Assembly (NCBI GenBank): GCA_020059465.1
Contig: JAGVBZ010000041.1
Location: 73,112-137,111 of the forward strand
Direction: 5' to 3'
Source of the DNA: Brevinematales bacterium
GTDB lineage: Bacteria; Spirochaetota; Brevinematia; Brevinematales; GWF1-51-8
Length of the DNA stretch: 64,000 nt
The translations under genes were made by a program, and so were the position numbers. Under the pieces are notes generated by a model, which worked only from the letters and a program-made list of their open reading frames with translations, had not been told where the DNA came from and did not search any database. Position 1 is the stretch's first letter; every line of letters starts with the position of its first letter. This document shows positions 43,059 to 57,230 of the stretch, piece by piece.

Positions 43059-43430
43059 TTAAAGAATTATTTTACTGATCCGTTTTTTCAAATCGGGGAT
43101 ACTGAACGGCTTGAAAACAAAGTCGGCGGCGCCCAGTTCGCGCCCCTTTTTCTCGTCCGCGCCCTTCTCCATCGCGGTGATAAACATCACGGGTATACCC
43201 GACGTAGCCGTATCTGACTTTAACCGTTTGCATACCTCGAAACCGTCCATCCCGGGCATCATGATATCCAGCAGGATCACGTCCGGCGAGTTCTCTCCAC
43301 GCGCAAGTTCCAGTCCGCGTTCCCCGTTCGGCGCGACCAGAATACGGTATATGTCCTTCAGCGCGTCCGAGAGTATTTTTATATTGAGAGGCGTGTCGTC
43401 GATTATCAGAACCGTTTTTCTATCGCTCAT
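43059..43430 (-). CDS. Stand-alone receiver-domain response regulator
   Basis: 123 residues, receiver only: [14 protein letters not shown], phospho-Asp in [15 protein letters not shown], the Thr/Ala of VMFITAM and the Lys of DFVFKPFS. No output domain, so it works as a phosphate shuttle or by protein contact. Its start overlaps the stop of the giant kinase by 4 nt, hence translational coupling, and it precedes two more receiver-bearing genes. Confidence 0.93.
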
Positions 43431-46400
43431 TTTTCATCACCCCACTCGACCCCGATTTTATACCCCAACTCCAGCAGAAGTTTTTCCGCTTCGTCGAAAC
43501 GGTAATTCGATATATGCTTATTCAGACGGGTATAGTACTCCGAGTATTCCGAACGGAGCATGTCCTTTTCGATGCTTTTCATAACAGTCTCTACATCCAA
43601 ATCGCCCGCGCGAAGAAGCCTGCGGAGTTCGAGCAAGACCGGCCTGAGTTTATCGGCATCGATCTTCGTATCGCGGTGTGAGTCAACGGCCTGCGGCGAC
43701 CGGCTGAAAAACTGTTCGATCGCGCTGATAACGATACCCAAATCCTTCTCGACCTTCTGAACCAATTCTCTATAACGCTCCTGTTCGCCGTTCTTGAACG
43801 CTTCATCCAGTTCGCGCGCGGACAGGTAGAGGTCGGACGCCCCGATCGCGCCGGCCACTCCCTTCAGGGTGTGAGCCAAACGGTGGGCGGATTCTTTGTC
43901 GTGCTTCTTCAACGAATCGCGTATCTTATCGGCAAAACCCTTGTTCTCCTGCAGGAAGTCCTGTAAAAGTTCGAGATAAAGTTCCTTGTTATTCTCCAGC
44001 CGTTTCAGAGCGGATATAATATCGATCCCCTGCAATTCTGACGGGAAGTGCCCGTTGCCCTGCGCTGCAGTCTTCTCCGCCTCGGCCTGTTCCAATCCGC
44101 CGGGCTCGATCCACTTCTTCAATACCGAAAACAGTTCTTCTATATGTATCGGTTTGGAAATATAATCGTTCATCCCGGCCTCGAGACATTTCTCCCGGTC
44201 TCCCTTCATCGCGTTGGCGGTCATCGCTATAATCGGGATATCGATGAAGCGCGGGTCCTGCCGTATCCTGCGGGTGGCCTCGAATCCGTCCATTTCCGGC
44301 ATCTGCACATCCATCAGGATCGCATGGTACGGCTGGTTCTTGACCGCTTCGACAGCCTCGATCCCGTTGTTGGCGATCTCGACATGGACGCCGGACTGCG
44401 AAAGGATCTCGGTCGCAACCTTCTGGTTGATCCGGTTATCCTCGACCAGCAGAACCCTCGCACCGCTCACAAAAGAACGGGTTAACGACCCGCGGGTCAG
44501 CATATTATCCCTGCTAAGGCTCTTCCGCTCCGCAGCGCCCGAAAAAAGATCGATGATGATATCGAATAACTGGGACTGCTTGATCGGTTTGAACAGGAAC
44601 GCGTCAATACCGATATTCTTGGCCTCATTGATCTCGCGTACGCTTCCGAACGCGGTCATCAGAATGACGGGGATTTTCCCCCATTTATCATTATTTTTTA
44701 TTTCTTTCGCAAGCTCAATTCCGTTCTGCCCAGGCATCTTCCAGTCGATCATCAGGAGACCGAATTGCCTGCCCTTCTTACCAGAGCGTTTTTTTAGTTC
44801 GTTCAGGGTATCCGCGCCGCCCGATACGCTCAACGTTTTAAATCCGAACGACGACAGCATCTGGGAAAGCACGATCCGCGTCGCTGCGTTGTCGTCCACT
44901 ATCAGCACATTCAGGTCTGAAAGTTCTTTCGGGAGGACTAAACCCCTCGTTTTGCCCTTCTTCTGGAGTTCGGCGGCTATAGTAAAATAGAATGTCGAGC
45001 CTTTGCCTTCTTTCGATTCTACCCCGATCTCCCCGCCCATCAGCTCTACAAGGCTTCTGCTGATCGCGAGTCCCAACCCTGTCCCACCGAATTTCCGGGT
45101 GGTCGAACCGTCGGCCTGCGTAAAAGACTCGAAGAGTTTGTTAATTTTTTCCTGTGAAATTCCCATTCCAGTATCCTCGATCGAAAAAAGAAGCTGTACG
45201 ACATTATCATACTGTTTCTTGAGTTCGACACGGATAATCACTGAGCCTGAGTCGGTAAACTTAATCGCGTTGGATACCAGATTGATAAGGATTTGGCTGA
45301 TGCGCAGCGGATCGCCGAGAAGCAGCATCGGGACGTCCTTATCGGCGGAGATAATCATCTCGATATCTTTTTCAATCGCGCGGGTACGGAACATATCGAT
45401 TATCTGATCGAGTATTTCCGAGAGGTTGTACTCGGTCTGTTCCAGTTCCATCTTTCCCGCTTCGATCTTGGAAAAGTCGAGGATATCGTTGATGATCTGC
45501 AGTAAGGATTGAGAAGACCCGCGTATAATAGAAAGGTACTCCGCAAGCTTCTGATCGAGATCGTTGGTCAGCGCGAGTTCGGTCATACCGATAATCGCGT
45601 TCATCGGCGTACGGATCTCGTGGCTCATATTCGCGAGGAATTCGCTTTTCGCCTTAGTGGCGGCCTCGGCTTCTTCCTTCGCTGTGCGGAGTTCGTTTTC
45701 CGCGCGAACCCGTTCGGTGATATCGAACGCAAACGATGTGATACCGATAATCTCGCCCTCGTCGGTGAGAATGGGGCTGTGAATATTCTCATAGTACACG
45801 CATTCGCCGGTCTTATCCGAGTATTCGTACGGGACATACACCGCCTGCCCGCCGGGGAGTTTCCTCTCGTAAAATGCTTCGATTTCAGTGACACTTTTCC
45901 CCGAAAGAACCAGGTCAATCCCTTTTTTCACGCTTTCGCGGGCCGCGGAATCGGGAAGCCAGTCGAGCTGAGAAATGCCGATTTTGGGATGCATCTTCCA
46001 CAACTTCCAAGTCATTTCTTCGTGCGCTTTATTATACAGAATGTATTGATAATTTCTGTCGAGCGACGATATACTGACATTTTCCGCGCTCTCAAGTATC
46101 GATTTCTGAAGCGCCATATACTGCCGGACTTTATCTTCGGCGTTTTTCCGTTCGGTAATATCCATCTGCATCGAGGTAAAGTTGGTAATCTTACCCATAT
46201 CGTTCTTAATCGGATAGATATAACTGTCAAGCCAAGTGACCGTTCCGTCCTTCTCGAATTTCATTTCATCGCGGTAGACGTTCCCGGACAACACGGTTTC
46301 TTTGATCGCGGGATCGAGTTTATCGAGATCGAGACGTTTCAGTTCCCCGTCCTCTTTAAAAAATTCGCCCGATTTTTCAAGGAAGCTCGGATTGATATAT

Positions 46401-49400
46401 TCGAAATTACCGTCAAGGTCGAATATAGCAATACAGGACGGGCTGTATTCGATAACCTGCGAGAGCTTGATCAACTCCTGTTCCGCTTCGTGCCGGGAAA
46501 TCGCCTCCCCGAAAGCGCCCGCGACAGCGGATAATAACGATTCATCCGCAGTCGACCAAGTCCGTTCCGTTGTACAATCGTTGAATCCGACGAAACCCCA
46601 GAAATAATCTTTTATCTGGATCGGTACCGCAAGAAGCGATTTTACGCCGAAGGACGCATAATTCTTCCGTTCGCTGTCGGGCAGGTCTTTAATTAAAACA
46701 TCGATAAAACCGCCTTTGGAAAGCGTATCAATCCATTCGTTGGAAAAACATTCATGGGTGACACGTCCCATATCCGGGATGCTGCCGATTTTCTCGATTC
46801 CTTCGGCCGTCCATTCGAAACGGAGCGACATAAATTTTTCACCGTTCTCGGTATGCTCGTTCTGGAAAAGGTACACCCTATCCACCTCCGTACACCGGCC
46901 GATACTGCCCAACGAGCTTTCGATCGCCATCTCGAAATCGGGATTGGTTACCAGTTCCAGCATCGCCCGCGAAACCCCCTCGAGCACCTTATCGCGATGT
47001 ACCAATTCTTCAGTGGCACGGCGTTTCTCGGTAATATCGCGCACCGTTCCCAGAAACGCTTCCTTTCCCATATAATCGATACGGGCGGACGAGATATACA
47101 ATACCGTCCTGGTTTGAGACAGATTGTTCTTCAGCATAACATTATACTCGCAGAATCCTTCCATCATACAGACATGCTCATGCTCGAAAACATTCCCTGA
47201 GCCGTCTTCCGAATAAACAAAATCGTTAATATTATGGCCGATCACCTCTTCGAGGGGCTTGCCGATCATCTTTATAAACGATTGGTTTGCGAACTGGATT
47301 TTATCATCGATAATAATAAATACGCCTTCCTGGATATTCTCGATCAGCGTACGGTACTGCTGTTCGGAGTTCTTTAGCGCCTCCTCCATATTTCGCTGTT
47401 CGGTTACATCGTTGCAGAATCCCTCGAAATACTCAGGTTCCCCGTTCTCGTTCCGTTTCAGCCGGAGTATCAGTTCGCCGATCAGCGCCTTTCCGGTCTG
47501 ATGGATAAACTTCTCTTCGGTAGTCGTCCAGACATCGCGATTAGAAAGTACATCGTTGAAGAAACGGTCGCGCGATTCCTTATCGGCGTAAAGCTGTTCC
47601 CGGATATCGGTGATACTCTCGATCAGATGATCGGGGGTATCGTACCCGAATATTTTAGCAAAAGTGGGGTTTACTTTTAAGAATTTCGAGCTGTCCGGCA
47701 GAGATTGGAAAATACCGACCGGCGCGTTTTCAAAAATACTGCGGAAACGTTCCTCAGATTCGGCCATCTCCATTTCCATCCGTTTCCGTTCGGTGACATC
47801 CCGGACTGTCCCCAACACGGCGGGCCTGCCGTTGTAGGTAATCATCCTTGAATTCATAGACATATATTTCCGCTTGGGGTTTTCGCCGAGGGACATACCG
47901 ACGAATTCCATTCCCTCTATAGCGGAATCCCCGCTTTTTCCCTCGAATGTCATTCTCATGAATTCTTCACGGCTCTCAGGCGCAATCACATCGATCACAT
48001 TCACCGTGTATAGACGTTCCTTCGCAGTTTCGGTGATTCTGGCAAACGCCTCGTTGACAAACACGAATTTTTCGTCGTCGACAATAAACACCCCCTCCTG
48101 CAGATTTTCCACCAGCACACGGTACTTCGCCTCGGATTCCCGCAACGCGGCTTCGGCGGATTTCCGGTCGGTAATATCGAGCATCGCGCCGATCGCGCCG
48201 TCCGGCGTCCCGTCCGCGTTATAGATGAGCGAACGGTTATAGAGAATCGTATGAACTTTGCCGTCGCGAAGAAGAGTCTCGGCTTCCAGCGTATCGTTCG
48301 CATGGCTGTCATCCCACACCACGGCTTTAGTATAATCAACGTCGGTCATTATTTTTATTTTCGCTTCCGCGAGTTTTTCCTCGACACTTCTCCCGATGAT
48401 TTCTTCATGCGTCATCCCAAGAAGATCGAGGAAGGCGGTATTGCAGAAAAGAAACCGCCGTTCGGTATCGCGGTAATAAATCGGGATCGGGATCGCGTCG
48501 ATAAATTTCTGACGGAATTTCAGGTCGGCTTCGATCTTCTTCTCTATCTTAATCCTTTCCTCAATCTCGTTCTGGAGGTCGGCGTTCAGTTCCTGTAGTT
48601 CCTTTGTACGTTCCTGCACCCTCAATTCGAGATCATCGCGCGCCTGCTGGAGTTTTTCTTCCGTTTTGATACGTTCGCTGAGTTCGATATTCAGCTGTTT
48701 GGTTTTTTGGATAACCTGCCGTTTGAGGGAACGGTTTATCATGATTGTGCCGAAGAGGAACGCCCCGATGCCGAGAATGATGACCAGTATGGATGAAAAC
48801 TGTTCGGGCGATACGGGCGGAGCCATTCTGCCGGTAATCCATTTATTGACCAGGCGCATGACTTCCTCATGCGAGGTAGCGACAATCGCCTTCATGAGAA
48901 CCTGATGAAGCACGGGCCAATCTTTCCGTATCGCAAACCCGTATTTTGCAAGATGATCCAGCTCGCCCGCAACCCGCAGATTCGCCAATCCCTCTTTCTC
49001 GATAAAATAATTGACTGTCGCGATGTTATCGATCATACAGTCCGCCATCCCGAAAGAAACCTTCCGCAATCCTGTGGGGACATCGAATACTTCTATCAAA
49101 ACGATACCGGGATACTTCGATTTTAAATACTGCTCCCATACCCCGTCTTTTACTACAACGACCTTCATCCCCTTGATCTTCTCCGGATTCAGGTATTCGG
49201 TGACCGTATTTTTCGTAACTATCGCCCCGGAAAGATTGATATGCGGCATGGTGAACAGCATGTGTTTTTCGAGTTCCGTCGAAAAAGCCGCCGCCGACAG
49301 CAAATCGACTTCCTTATCCCTTGCGCTTTGCAGCACACTGCTCCATGAATCGAAGCGGATAATATCGAACTTTATATCGAGTTTCTTTGCGATTAATTTC

Positions 49401-49636
49401 AGGAAATCGATCGACAAACCCTGAACATCCCCATTTTCATCATACCACTCGATAGGCGGGAACATGGGATTCGGCGCGACACGGATGACCGGATGCCCTT
49501 TAAGCCATTCCTCCTCCTCCGGCGTCAGATTCGTTAATTGAGACTTCGCGTACAATCCCGCGCCCGACAAAACGAGGATAAGACAAACACAAGCCGCACG
49601 AAACATCGATGAAAATAACATGCTTTTATTTCTCAC
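43427..49636 (-). CDS. Giant hybrid sensor histidine kinase (SBP3-PAS-GAF-HK-REC-REC-HPt)
   Basis: 2069 residues from GTG 49636 (ATG 49621 is a possible alternative). Signal peptide to about 30; periplasmic solute-binding type-3 domain about 45-268; membrane helix 281-300; coiled coil 303-375; PAS domains near 375-495, 503-620, 628-750, 760-875, then GAF 885-1050, PAS 1055-1170 and 1175-1310; HisKA with His1339 ([11 protein letters not shown]); ATPase 1445-1555; receivers with Asp1631 and Asp1776; HPt with His1922 (AHTLKGVAG); a further helical tail to 2069. A full internal phosphorelay of BvgS/EvgS style with an unusually long PAS/GAF stack. Heads the operon. Confidence 0.93.
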
Positions 49637-53126: not shown

Positions 53127-53153
53127 TTGAACTTTTTCCGGGAATGCCGAAAA
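53127..53153 (+). promoter_or_regulatory. Sigma28 (FliA)-like flagellar promoter candidate
   Basis: GCCGAAAA (53146-53153) matches the sigma28 -10 consensus GCCGATAA in 7 of 8 positions; at 11-bp spacing upstream stands TTGAACTT, a weak match (4 of 8) to TAAAGTTT. No good sigma70 -10 is present at the right distance. Drives a flagellin-like gene, which supports but does not prove the call. Confidence 0.45.
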
Positions 53154-53200
53154 TTGATAGAGGTAACTTATCGTTATCTATTATCTATCCGGAGGAAAAA

Positions 53201-54112
53201 ATGAAAAAAACACTGATTTCCATGGGGGTTGTTTTATCGATTGTTATTCTCGCGGCGTCCGTGCCTGTCAATGCGAGCCAGAGTGTAGTTCCTTTCTCGC
53301 CCGAAGTGATGACAATGATTGTAAAAAATATCCAACACACCGAAGCTCTCCTTGACACCGCGCAGGATTACCTGAATCAGTACCGCGATGTTCTATGTGA
53401 AATCCGCGAGATTATGGTTCGGGGAGCGAACGGTATCTACGATGAAGGCGACCGTTGGAATTTACTAAAGAAAGTCAATGAATGCACCGGCGAATGCGAA
53501 CTTATCCTCGAGCATGCTTGGTTTAACGGTCTTCCGGTTTTTAGTAATCCCGACACAGGGGAGAGTTTCCATGTATTTCCGGTGACACTCAGCCCGGCGG
53601 AAACCACGTTTAAGATCACCATATCGTCCGAAAAATTCAATGCCGCCGCGCTGAAAATATTTACCGACAGCCTGAAACCCACCCCGCTCAGTATGGAAAA
53701 GGGTATCGCCAAGGTCGACGCACTTCTCACTGCTGTTAATATGGAAGCTGCGAAGCTGGAGGCTTTCCAGTCCCGTCTGCAGTACGCCGCCCGTTTCGCG
53801 AACATTCTTGCTAACGACGCGACGGCTGGGTCTTTGGATAATTTCTTTATTAAACTTAACCTCGATATCGACACCCGTCTGTTCACTCTTGCCGTCCAGA
53901 GCGCGAGCGGTATTTATGGTAAAGACGACCGCCAGATGCTCCAGATGGAGTTCAACGAACTGTTCGACGAACTGAAACGGATTGAGAAACTCACCGGTAT
54001 AAAGAGCCTTTTCGCCGACCTGAAAAACCCGTCCCTGCTCACCCAGAAGGACGCCGAGGAGATGATGATCCTGATGGCCGGGAAATTCGCAAGTATAAAA
54101 AAGCAGAACTAA
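53201..54112 (+). CDS. Sec-exported flagellin-like protein
   Basis: 303 residues from ATG 53201 (CCGGAGGAAAAA); the longer frame from 53144 runs through the promoter. A Sec signal peptide (1 to about 26, ending VPVNAS) is followed by a flagellin D1-like N-module: NIQHTEALLDTAQDYLNQY, then RGANGIYDEGDR and HAWFNGLPVF, matching flagellin lines such as AANGIYSAEDR and AQFNGMNML. Residues about 170-215 (KVDALLTAVNMEAAKLEAFQ, then SRLQYAA) resemble the flagellin C-terminal LGAYQNRLE block. A second GIYGKDDRQMLQMEF follows at about 250. True flagellins lack signal peptides, so this is a novel secreted relative. Confidence 0.7.
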   Translation: MKKTLISMGVVLSIVILAASVPVNASQSVVPFSPEVMTMIVKNIQHTEALLDTAQDYLNQYRDVLCEIREIMVRGANGIYDEGDRWNLLKKVNECTGECELILEHAWFNGLPVFSNPDTGESFHVFPVTLSPAETTFKITISSEKFNAAALKIFTDSLKPTPLSMEKGIAKVDALLTAVNMEAAKLEAFQSRLQYAARFANILANDATAGSLDNFFIKLNLDIDTRLFTLAVQSASGIYGKDDRQMLQMEFNELFDELKRIEKLTGIKSLFADLKNPSLLTQKDAEEMMILMAGKFASIKKQN

Positions 54113-54120
54113 AAATAAAA

Positions 54121-54147
54121 GGGGGAACGAAAACGTTCCCCCTTTTT
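54121..54147. terminator. Rho-independent terminator (probably bidirectional)
   Basis: GGGGGAACG (54121-54129), loop AAAA, CGTTCCCCC (54134-54142), then TTTTT; an A-rich run just before it supplies a U-tract on the minus strand, serving both the flagellin-like gene and the convergent lipoprotein gene. Confidence 0.92.
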
Positions 54148-54153
54148 ATGGAT

Positions 54154-54561
54154 TTATTGATCGTTATTGATCAGAATATAATACATATTATGATTATAGA
54201 CCGGGTTCTCATAAACCAGCTTCTTCACGATCAGTTTCCCGTTAATTTCCACAAACTTACCCTGATTTGGGAGATAATTGAATTTTTTATTTTTCGTTTC
54301 ATCCGCAATATAGATATCGATCTGGCTGTTTAGAGTAACTACCCAGTCAGTCATCGGCTCCGAATTTACCAATCGCAGTATCCCGATAAACTTCACGTTT
54401 TTCCCTTCCATGCTCTCCAGATCATTTTTTGAATAATTCGCCTCCTTTACAGCGGCGTATTCTTTCTGCGAGATATTCAAAATCGTAATATTCTCCGCTT
54501 TCTTTACGCCCGAACAGGAAATCAGGGTAAAACCGAAAATAATGTATAATATATATTTCAT
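54154..54561 (-). CDS. Hypothetical small lipoprotein
   Basis: 135 residues from ATG 54561 (GAGGTACTGC). Signal with lipobox LISC predicts lipidation. The mature part has LRLVNSEPMTDWVVTLNSQI and KFVEINGKLIVKKLVY, a small beta-rich pattern suggestive of an OB-like fold, but no family is recognised. AT-richer than most of the window. Same strand as the M30-like lipoprotein 57 bp upstream, with a long inverted repeat in between. Confidence 0.6.
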   Translation of the reverse strand: MKYILYIIFGFTLISCSGVKKAENITILNISQKEYAAVKEANYSKNDLESMEGKNVKFIGILRLVNSEPMTDWVVTLNSQIDIYIADETKNKKFNYLPNQGKFVEINGKLIVKKLVYENPVYNHNMYYILINNDQ

Positions 54562-54574
54562 GCAGTACCTCATA

Positions 54575-54615
54575 TTCAATACCGGATAAGGGAAAACCCC
54601 TTACCCGGTATTGAA
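54575..54615. repeat. Long inverted repeat between two lipoprotein genes
   Basis: TTCAATACCGG-A-TAAGGG pairs with CCCTTA-CC-CGGTATTGAA around a short A-rich loop, with one mismatch. In the minus (coding) direction no T-run follows, so a processing or attenuation hairpin is more likely than a terminator; the next ribosome binding site (GAGG) starts just beyond it. Confidence 0.75.
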
Positions 54616-54618
54616 TAT

Positions 54619-55950
54619 TTATTTCTGTGCCTTAAAATACTGAATATTCTGGCCGTAGTTATTTACCTGGAAAGAGACATTCGACGAATAAATCAAATAA
54701 ACTGCTCCTCCGGGTAAAAGCTGCAGCGAGGAATAAGGCAAACTGGGGGGAAACACCCCATTCGATAGCACAGAAAATAATCCGTTTTCCGATCCGTATC
54801 CGTAAATAGTCGCAGGATCCATGAAAAGGTTTGCTAAGCGAAAGCCTTTTAATATGTCGGAAAAGCTTTTAAAGTTGGTATTCTGCGACATCATCACAGA
54901 AGTCAGCCCGGCATAAGTACCGTCATTCTGCGTAATGACCATCTTGAATAACTCGTTATAGGCAGGGGCGTTATTTTTACAGTACTGCATAAATAAATAG
55001 GAAAGGGTATATGCTTCGTTCGAATTATCCCAAACGCATAACGGGTGCCCGTTTCTGATTGCAATCTGAGTGGAATTCGTAAAACAAGAGAAACGTATTT
55101 GCCCTATTGTTCCCGCGACATACTGTTCCGCCGACTCCGCCAATCCCTCGTTCAGCCAGGTATCCATCGAGGTTTTACCCATTAAATTTCTCTGTGAGAA
55201 ATTGATTAAATGCTGAAATTCGTGCGCAAGCGTACGAATCATATCCGCATTATCGGGCGGGTAAGTGACAGCATCGATCGTATTCATATAGAATACTTCC
55301 ATATTATTCCCTTGGGAAGGGATCAAATCCCCCGAAGAGAAATATCCGAATATGAAGCCCGATGCGGCCTGGATCGGATAATACAGAATTACAACTTTGC
55401 CGTTGGCATCGATATCGGATGGATTGCCGAAACCGTTGGTCATCTTCACATAAATGTTCGTATCGAAATTTGCGCCTAAATTCGTCCAATCGCCGGCGGA
55501 AAAAGCTCCTACGTTAGCGTTGGTCGCCAGATAGATAAGACATGCGGAATTCACTGTCCCGTAAACCAGATTGGCGCCTAAAAGCACTGTACCAGAACTG
55601 CTGAAATTCGTTATTACCGAGAACACCGCGCTATTAGATTCATGCGTCAGCTTAAATTGAATAGGCGGATTACTGAGAGGCGAAGGCGAATAAGCCAGAT
55701 CTTTAAATACTTTTGGAATCGGATAGTAACCCTTTGTCAATGCAGAGAGTTTTCCGAGCGGAACCCCCGTTCCGATCACTTCCCAGTTCGACGCCGCCGT
55801 TCCGCTGGAGTTGAGAACAAGAAAAACATTTCCCGGTCCAACGCTTATCGGCTGAGTAGTAGGCCCGGGGACTTCCGCCGCGGGTTGGCTTCCGCATGCA
55901 GAGATCAGCGTAAACAATGCAAACGATGCCGCCAAAGTTCTAATCACCAT
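54619..55950 (-). CDS. Lipoprotein metallopeptidase, M30 (hyicolysin)-like
   Basis: 443 residues. Lipobox LISAC after the signal; a Pro/Thr linker; an N-terminal beta domain; then the zincin motif LAHEFQHLINF at about 245 and WLNEGLAESAE about 20 residues later, the third-ligand region. That arrangement matches the M30/hyicolysin-type secreted metallopeptidases. Predicted to be anchored at the cell surface and to cleave host or environmental protein. Precedes the 54154 lipoprotein on the same strand. Confidence 0.78.
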   Translation of the reverse strand: MVIRTLAASFALFTLISACGSQPAAEVPGPTTQPISVGPGNVFLVLNSSGTAASNWEVIGTGVPLGKLSALTKGYYPIPKVFKDLAYSPSPLSNPPIQFKLTHESNSAVFSVITNFSSSGTVLLGANLVYGTVNSACLIYLATNANVGAFSAGDWTNLGANFDTNIYVKMTNGFGNPSDIDANGKVVILYYPIQAASGFIFGYFSSGDLIPSQGNNMEVFYMNTIDAVTYPPDNADMIRTLAHEFQHLINFSQRNLMGKTSMDTWLNEGLAESAEQYVAGTIGQIRFSCFTNSTQIAIRNGHPLCVWDNSNEAYTLSYLFMQYCKNNAPAYNELFKMVITQNDGTYAGLTSVMMSQNTNFKSFSDILKGFRLANLFMDPATIYGYGSENGLFSVLSNGVFPPSLPYSSLQLLPGGAVYLIYSSNVSFQVNNYGQNIQYFKAQK

Positions 55951-56015: not shown

Positions 56016-57230
56016 TTATTCCCCTTTCACATTCGCCATATTCTGCGCGAATATCTCATCCTTCCATTTCTGGTATTCCTCTGCGGTGATCTTCTTTTCA
56101 TTATACTTCTGGTACATCTTCGCGTAATCGGCCGACCCGAACGCGTAGTAAGAATCCTCGAGATACGCCTTCCAGACCGGCTCGAGATAATCCGCAAATG
56201 CGGGGTCTTTCACGATCGCGTTCCACAGAGCCTGCAGGTCGGTTACTTTGTACTTCGCGATCGTTTTCATCAGGCGCTGGAACGCCTCCCTGATATTGTC
56301 CCATTGATCGTACTTCTGAATATCGATTTTTTTCCCGGTATCGGTCTCGATCTGCGCCTTGATGATATCGAGGAGTACCCGTACGACCACACCCTCGCAT
56401 GCAAGCATATCTTTCTGGGTGCGGAGTTTCTTCATCGGAAGGAGTTTCCCGTTCAGGAAGATATCTATCCCCTGTGAATCGATCTTCTTCAGCGTCTTAT
56501 TGCCCCATTCGTCCCATACGAACATATTGTTCAGTACGCCGAAACTCCGGAAATACCCGAACTCCACCTGATGCCAGAACGGTATATTTTCGAGGAAATG
56601 CCCCGACTTGTACTGCGGCATCCTGAACATGAAAAATATCTCGAACAGTTCCGCGAACCCCTCGTCGAACGCAACATTCGGGTCGGTTATCGACGAGACT
56701 CCTTCGGACTGTACCTCACGCTGGGGGAAATCCGGTACGAGGTTCGCGAGTACGATATGCCCCACCTCGTGGATAAATCCCGTCTGGAACGCCGCCGTCT
56801 TTATCGATTCCTGATCGCCGTACTCATCATTGATGGGCAGGAAGAATACGGAACCCTGCGTCTTATCCCCGTCGAGCTTAAACCAGTACTTTCCGGTATA
56901 ATGCTGGACGAACGGTACGCCCACCGGAGATTTATTCCCGCACATCGCGAGGTAGAATGTTTTATTAGGTTTGGAAGATACCTGCGCAGAGTAAGCGAAA
57001 AGTTCGAATGTCTGCTTGATGACCTCGCTCGATTGGATTTCCTTAATCAGATAACCGACCTTTCCGGTATCCTTCAATGTCTGTAATACCGACGAGGGCA
57101 TTTCATCATTCGCCGGTTCGACCAGTATGAGATATTTTGAGAGGCCGCTTTTCCCGTACGCGACCATAGACGAATCGCCGTATGCGATGACTGCGATGAA
57201 CAATAGAACGATACCCGCCATTCTTTTCAT
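56016..57230 (-). CDS. Secreted zincin-like metalloprotease (HEVGH)
   Basis: 404 residues. Signal peptide MKRMAGIVLLFIAVIAYG; unknown N-terminal half; zinc motif FIHEVGHIVLANL at about 150 and FDEGFAELFEIFF about 35 residues later, which supplies the third acidic ligand. The C-terminal third is helical and Lys/Tyr-rich (YQKYNEKKITAEEYQKWK). Not assignable to a named family, but clearly a different lineage from the M30-like lipoprotein next door. Together they form a small extracellular protease set. Confidence 0.7.
   Translation of the reverse strand: MKRMAGIVLLFIAVIAYGDSSMVAYGKSGLSKYLILVEPANDEMPSSVLQTLKDTGKVGYLIKEIQSSEVIKQTFELFAYSAQVSSKPNKTFYLAMCGNKSPVGVPFVQHYTGKYWFKLDGDKTQGSVFFLPINDEYGDQESIKTAAFQTGFIHEVGHIVLANLVPDFPQREVQSEGVSSITDPNVAFDEGFAELFEIFFMFRMPQYKSGHFLENIPFWHQVEFGYFRSFGVLNNMFVWDEWGNKTLKKIDSQGIDIFLNGKLLPMKKLRTQKDMLACEGVVVRVLLDIIKAQIETDTGKKIDIQKYDQWDNIREAFQRLMKTIAKYKVTDLQALWNAIVKDPAFADYLEPVWKAYLEDSYYAFGSADYAKMYQKYNEKKITAEEYQKWKDEIFAQNMANVKGE

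Follow-up and report, generated by a model that had tools for sequence, protein, structure and literature searches.

The D0 arms of flagellins form the core of the flagellar filament, and in spirochaetes, with FlaB as the core flagellin, flagella lie in the periplasm. By the accepted view, the flagellar export gate is the one route by which flagellins leave the cell. The spirochaete sheath protein FlaA (FlaA1 and FlaA2; PMC13144727) is unrelated to flagellin (PMC7065911, PMC9254593); it bears a signal peptide, and its presumed path to the filament leads through Sec and the periplasm (PMC9254593). In a large survey, which covered 113,285 flagellin genes, proteins were retained only if they had the flagellin domains of both termini (PMC7018530). 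In a literature search that left most subscription journals outside its coverage, we found no description of Sec-exported flagellins.

Here we analyzed a 64,000-nucleotide stretch of genome from a Brevinematales bacterium (the window). Because flaB (three genes), FlaA-domain (four PF04620 genes), flgL and fliA genes are present, the host genome encodes periplasmic flagella. One gene in the window (Table 1) specifies a protein for which flagellin ancestry and a predicted export by Sec are both well supported.

Table 1. Features of the gene for the putative Sec-exported flagellin-D1 protein and its flanks (window positions)
Feature	Position	Strand	Basis or remark
σ28 -10-like box, GCCGAAAA	53146..53153	+	CCGAAAAT kept ahead of the G001, G002 and G003 orthologues
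Shine-Dalgarno, GGAGG	53191..53195	+	sequence
Gene for putative Sec-exported flagellin-D1 protein, 303 aa	53201..54112	+	ORF; orthologues in three congeners; dN/dS about 0.15
Signal peptide, residues 1-25 (n-region MKK, h-region, VNA cleavage motif)	53201..53275	+	hydropathy, orthologues
N-terminal D1 hairpin copy 1, residues 37-116, with RGANGIYDEGDR and HAWFNGLPVF	53309..53548	+	PF00669 positions 57-136
D1 beta region, residues 109-145, family-specific, strongly conserved NPDTGESFHVFPVTLSPAETTFKITI	53525..53635	+	
C-terminal D1 helix, residues 162-205, with LEAFQSRLQYAA	53684..53815	+	FlaB alignment; predicted helix 162-205
Second N-terminal D1 hairpin, residues 211-265, with ASGIYGKDDR	53831..53995	+	FlaB match
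Family-specific C-terminal tail, residues 266-303	53996..54109	+	
Hairpin with A/T runs on either side, likely two-way terminator shared with convergent ORF 54154-54579	54117..54146	.	

The original prediction had read flagellin D1-type modules in this protein, and all the motifs that it named were found, far beyond chance. Profile searches, which it had proposed as a check, returned flagellins: Flagellin_N (PF00669) matched residues 37-116 (E 1e-12), the NCBIfam flagellin model PRK12802 matched residues 37-208 (1.7e-18), and a PDB sequence search aligned Leptospira FlaB1 to residues 42-199 (3.5e-11). Because of these Pfam, NCBIfam and PDB matches, we take the motifs as true homology rather than chance. 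FlgL (HAP3) has a D1-type hairpin in common with the protein, which the FlgL models of NCBIfam also match, at 1e-11 to 1e-15. An identity as FlgL was nevertheless ruled out, since flagellin models fit better: the FlgL model TIGR02550 scored 42.7 bits against a cut-off of 127.2, and PRK12802 scored higher. FlgL also has D0 and no signal peptide, and the genome's own FlgL is a separate protein of 416-423 aa.

AlphaFold2 reached a pLDDT of 61 when only family members were in the alignment, with helices that agree with the layout in Table 1, and a pLDDT of 75.8 with a pTM of 0.71 after FlaB D1 sequences were added, an addition that biases the model towards the D1 fold. Flagellins led the Foldseek results for both models, and the structural check that was to refute the prediction (a model unlike D1) did not do so. 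For the FlaB-containing model, the best four matches were three Leptospira core filaments and a Pseudomonas flagellin (E 4e-4 to 9e-4); the D1 crystal structure 5gy2_C gave a TM of 0.76 by target length.

The predicted signal peptide, MKKTLISMGVVLSIVILAASVPVNA, would be cleaved before S. Its 11-residue hydropathy peak is 2.88, compared with 0.17-1.23 in 17 FlaB N-termini, and it is retained in the orthologues (four species in all) although the sequence diverges there. Hydropathy, cleavage motif and conservation together bear out the Sec signal peptide of the original prediction. A hydrophobic N-terminus might also result from a misread start, the real product being an ordinary exported flagellin, and a longer in-frame start is indeed present at 53144. 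We give this explanation almost no credence: the sequence upstream of 53201 is devoid of D0, the Shine-Dalgarno sequence suits the ATG at 53201, and the orthologues keep the signal peptide. Thus, the true start is 53201, neither 53127 nor the ATG at 53144, and a D0 arm hidden behind the latter was ruled out by the upstream sequence and by orthologue comparison. The gene forms a small single-gene transcription unit.

Nothing in the window protein corresponds to the first 60 or so residues of FlaB (D0 and spoke), and its PF00669 match begins at profile position 57. Among 18 genomes of the class, flagellins outside this family all begin at PF00669 position 1, and FlgLs begin at positions 1-13. 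At the other end, the window protein has no PF00700 match, and FlaB alignments end at about residue 209. By these alignments the protein lacks both D0 arms, with the signal peptide standing where the N-terminal D0 would be. The middle and the N-terminal D0 had both been described as missing or replaced. The D0 part of that description was right and can be extended to the C-terminal D0; the middle is not missing, as the D1 beta region is there in altered form, with 14 of its 37 positions invariant.

The second GIYGKDDR copy noted in the sequence proved to be part of a second D1 hairpin, and the module is thus doubled. AlphaFold2 predicted helices at residues 34-76 and 82-106 in the first hairpin and at 211-235 and 241-265 in the second, which occupies the place where FlaB runs into D0. 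Residues 211 to about 265 score 15-17 s.d. over shuffles against the genome's own FlaBs, and a profile built from the C-terminal third of the protein matches FlaBs at about 1e-10. Because the second hairpin is nearer to an own FlaB (alignment score 102) than to copy 1 (51), it is not simply a recent duplicate of copy 1. Both copies contain the FlaB-like GIY..DR loop, and FN motifs are also kept. The tail that follows does not match in FlaB alignments; within the family, 20 of the 38 tail positions do not vary.

Orthologues are found in G001 (Spirochaetes bacterium GWF1_49_6; 81%), G002 (80%) and G003 (GWF1_51_8; about 50%). All three sampled congeners retain the entire architecture with intact frames, and close orthologue pairs give dN/dS values of 0.14-0.15, indicating purifying selection. 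The only named congeners found in contig searches for relatives were GWF1_49_6 and GWF1_51_8, and profile searches of 393 and 296 genomes of the phylum yielded no additional full-length family member. Across these genomes the exact architecture, which we call group Z, appears restricted to this genus.

In G001 and G002 there is, in addition, a tandem paralogue, "b" (41-44%; L035:7996-8886 and L036:8471-9364, both minus strand), that has lost the first GIY..DR loop and retained the second. Its final stretch has 90-97% DNA identity to the neighboring "a" copy, versus about 50% elsewhere; because the high identity is confined to this last stretch, it points to gene conversion in the tail. The divergence of "b" and its lost loop, along with the loss of D0 and the partial extra copy in the window protein, would fit a decaying, functionless flagellin copy that had acquired a hydrophobic N-terminus. 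The dN/dS of about 0.15 between species contradicts this, frames are intact in four of four species, and the new tail is strongly conserved. We therefore regard decay as very improbable, and a pseudogene was ruled out by dN/dS and conservation.

A σ28-like promoter had been proposed upstream of the gene. The core of its -10-like box, CCGAAAA, is conserved ahead of the gene in each of the four species of the genus, and the flaB gene on G000:C36 of the same genome is preceded by a similar box, CCGAAAAATTAA, with TAAT 16 nt further upstream. The -35 of the window gene (TTGA or TGAA) is poor. A σ28 consensus scan of the window gave four matches, none at this gene, and best-match promoter scores were no better than those of shuffles for most upstream regions, single-site statistics not being significant. 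Because shuffled sequence scores equally well in most cases, we keep the σ28 promoter as suggestive. The motif GCCGAWAA occurs 20 times in the window versus 9.5 expected from shuffles.

The gene is neighbored by genes for PPK2, a GIY-YIG protein, a C_GCAxxG_C_C protein and secreted proteins, and no flagellar gene adjoins it in the genus. Two secreted proteins are encoded nearby on the minus strand: one (54619-55950) has a predicted zinc protease domain (DUF2268, HEFQH), and the other (56016-57230) has no Pfam match and relatives that adjoin the gene in the genus. Elsewhere in the window, 43427-49636 (minus strand) encodes a 2069-aa hybrid sensor kinase in which, read by eye, a periplasmic-binding-like N-terminus, many PAS-like repeats, receiver domains and an HPt-like end can be made out.

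We surveyed 71 genomes, 18 from the class and 53 from other families, for every Flagellin_N match and read the odd ones. Weak PF00669 matches to contig-edge fragments in G027, an SbcC-like coiled coil in G101 and an FlgL-like fragment in G163 were judged irrelevant. The survey gave four signal-peptide flagellins, from which profiles were made. Group Y comprises 14 loci (L186-L199; families f8, f12, f23, f30, f32, f34 and f40) at E 2.6e-57 or better, where ordinary FlaBs end near 1e-30, and group X comprises four (L201-L204; families f26 and f33). Signal-peptide flagellins of groups X and Y thus occur in at least nine other spirochaete families, ten with group Z. Read singly, each of the 18 genes begins with a hydrophobic N-terminus (peak 2.16-3.36) that is followed by flagellin sequence; two are located close to the end of a contig or right at it, and for G224 the start was placed by eye. 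Both groups keep D0-like arms (LSSGKRI..DDPAG; SRI.DLDMAE) and have no second hairpin. In group Y, LSSGKRI..DDPAG.A and SRI.DLDMAE are hallmarks of both D0 arms, and a conserved strand-like extra segment, e.g. LFIPSGANFYVYGRG, follows the signal peptide. Upstream regions of groups X and Y show no σ28-like promoter of the kind seen here, with the single exception of L188 (2/200 shuffles).

In G200 a group Y gene and, 86 bp downstream of it in the same orientation, flgB-flgC-fliE-fliF-fliG lie within L199:5774-11999 (plus strand). The flgB operon was seen at this one locus, and no neighbors are shared generally across group Y genes; a gene cluster, C1 (by eye, cyclic-nucleotide-binding regulator-like), recurs at four group Y loci. 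Two further genes were seen: a group Y gene that is broken, with a TAG in frame and a change of frame (L200; G149:C81:4539-5343), and a gene (L119:747-1796, plus strand; G169:C31) for a 350-aa protein with two tandem flagellin D1 units, no D0 and no obvious signal peptide. In a tree with long branches, X, Y and Z are each a well-supported clade; X+Y has support of 95/97, X+Y+Z is not rejected (p-AU 0.154), and Y+Z alone is rejected (p 0.027). The presence of groups X and Y in other families suggests that the re-routing is recurrent or old in the phylum. The window protein, L120, L122, L123 and L199 match only the N-terminal flagellin domain of Pfam, and the C-terminal match of L121 is below threshold. 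Because for group Z and most of the X and Y proteins tested that domain alone gives a match above threshold, Sec flagellins may have been missed.

On balance, we favor the following reading. The window protein would be a FlaB paralogue that has left the flagellar type III export gate for the Sec pathway: the N-terminal D0 would have been replaced by a Sec signal peptide, the C-terminal D0 lost, and a second D1 hairpin and a tail gained. The mature protein would reside in the periplasm, the same compartment as spirochaete flagella, and without D0 it would be unable to enter the filament core. On the periplasmic side, its D1 surfaces may bind FlaB, whether in filaments or not yet assembled, making it an accessory protein (decorating, sheath-like or capping) analogous to FlaA that acts on the FlaB filament from outside. 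A periplasmic or surface filament protein had originally been envisaged. The signal peptide and the endoflagellate host agree with a periplasmic location; with neither D0 arm left, the protein is unlikely to form a filament itself. The absence of flagellar neighbors in the genus, the weak σ28 link and the lack of such a promoter in groups X and Y count against this accessory role.

Two other roles were considered. First, the flagellin fold may have been recruited to a job in the envelope that has nothing to do with flagella, as a periplasmic scaffold or, if the protein crosses the outer membrane, as a surface adhesin. In the window genus the neighboring genes are secreted or lipoprotein-like rather than flagellar, conservation is highest in the family-specific beta region and tail rather than in the FlaB-like parts, and cell-surface flagellin homologues are described elsewhere (titles of PDB 3k8w and 2zbi). 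We nevertheless consider such a job unlikely: every host of a Sec flagellin that we found is flagellated, one of the genes heads a flgB operon, and the FlaB-like GIY..DR loop is retained in both copies. Second, the protein could regulate flagellin assembly in the periplasm: as a soluble decoy or chaperone made of D1, it would limit or protect assembly by binding the growing ends of filaments or FlaB subunits that are unassembled or have leaked. Judging from flagellin structure, D1 without D0 would offer D1-D1 surfaces and should not self-polymerize, and the doubled N-terminal D1 hairpin could pair with FlaB; a small single-gene transcription unit would also suit a regulator. However, flagellins are believed to reach the tip of the filament through its interior, so that little free FlaB is to be expected in the periplasm, which makes this role improbable.

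If the accessory reading is right, Sec would bring a family of flagellins into the compartment of the endoflagellum. The route would be new for the flagellin fold, as would probably the role, and members of the family would be candidates for unassigned densities on spirochaete filaments. More tentatively, X, Y and Z, from at least ten families, could constitute a Sec-routed second class of flagellins that coats, caps or otherwise acts on the endoflagellar core from the periplasm. Part of the sheath would then be flagellin-derived, and the D1-only, doubled form in the window would be its most reduced version.

How does the window protein compare with known systems? With spirochaete FlaB (PF00669/PF00700) it has the D1 hairpin, the beta region and the C-terminal D1 helix in common. 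It differs in having a signal peptide for the N-terminal D0, no C-terminal D0, an added second D1 hairpin and a new tail, and neither passage through the type III gate nor a place in the core is expected of it. Measured against filament-forming flagellins, it shows the PF00669 D1 homology and, as far as can be read from its sequence, neither the D0 arms nor the absence of a signal peptide. Like FlaA, it is a spirochaete protein with a Sec signal peptide and is presumed periplasmic; in Pfam it has no match to the FlaA domain (PF04620). FcpA and FcpB of Leptospira are likewise genus-restricted, and belong to the sheath, where they contact the FlaB core or lie around it; unlike the window protein, they are not described as flagellin homologues, and neither had a chain matched in the PDB sequence search. 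In groups X and Y, as here, a Sec signal peptide precedes the flagellin N-terminal region; the window protein, in which it leads directly into flagellin homology, has the feature that defines the proposed Sec-exported class. It differs from both groups in its missing D0-like arms and its second hairpin, and the strand-like segment is found in Y alone.
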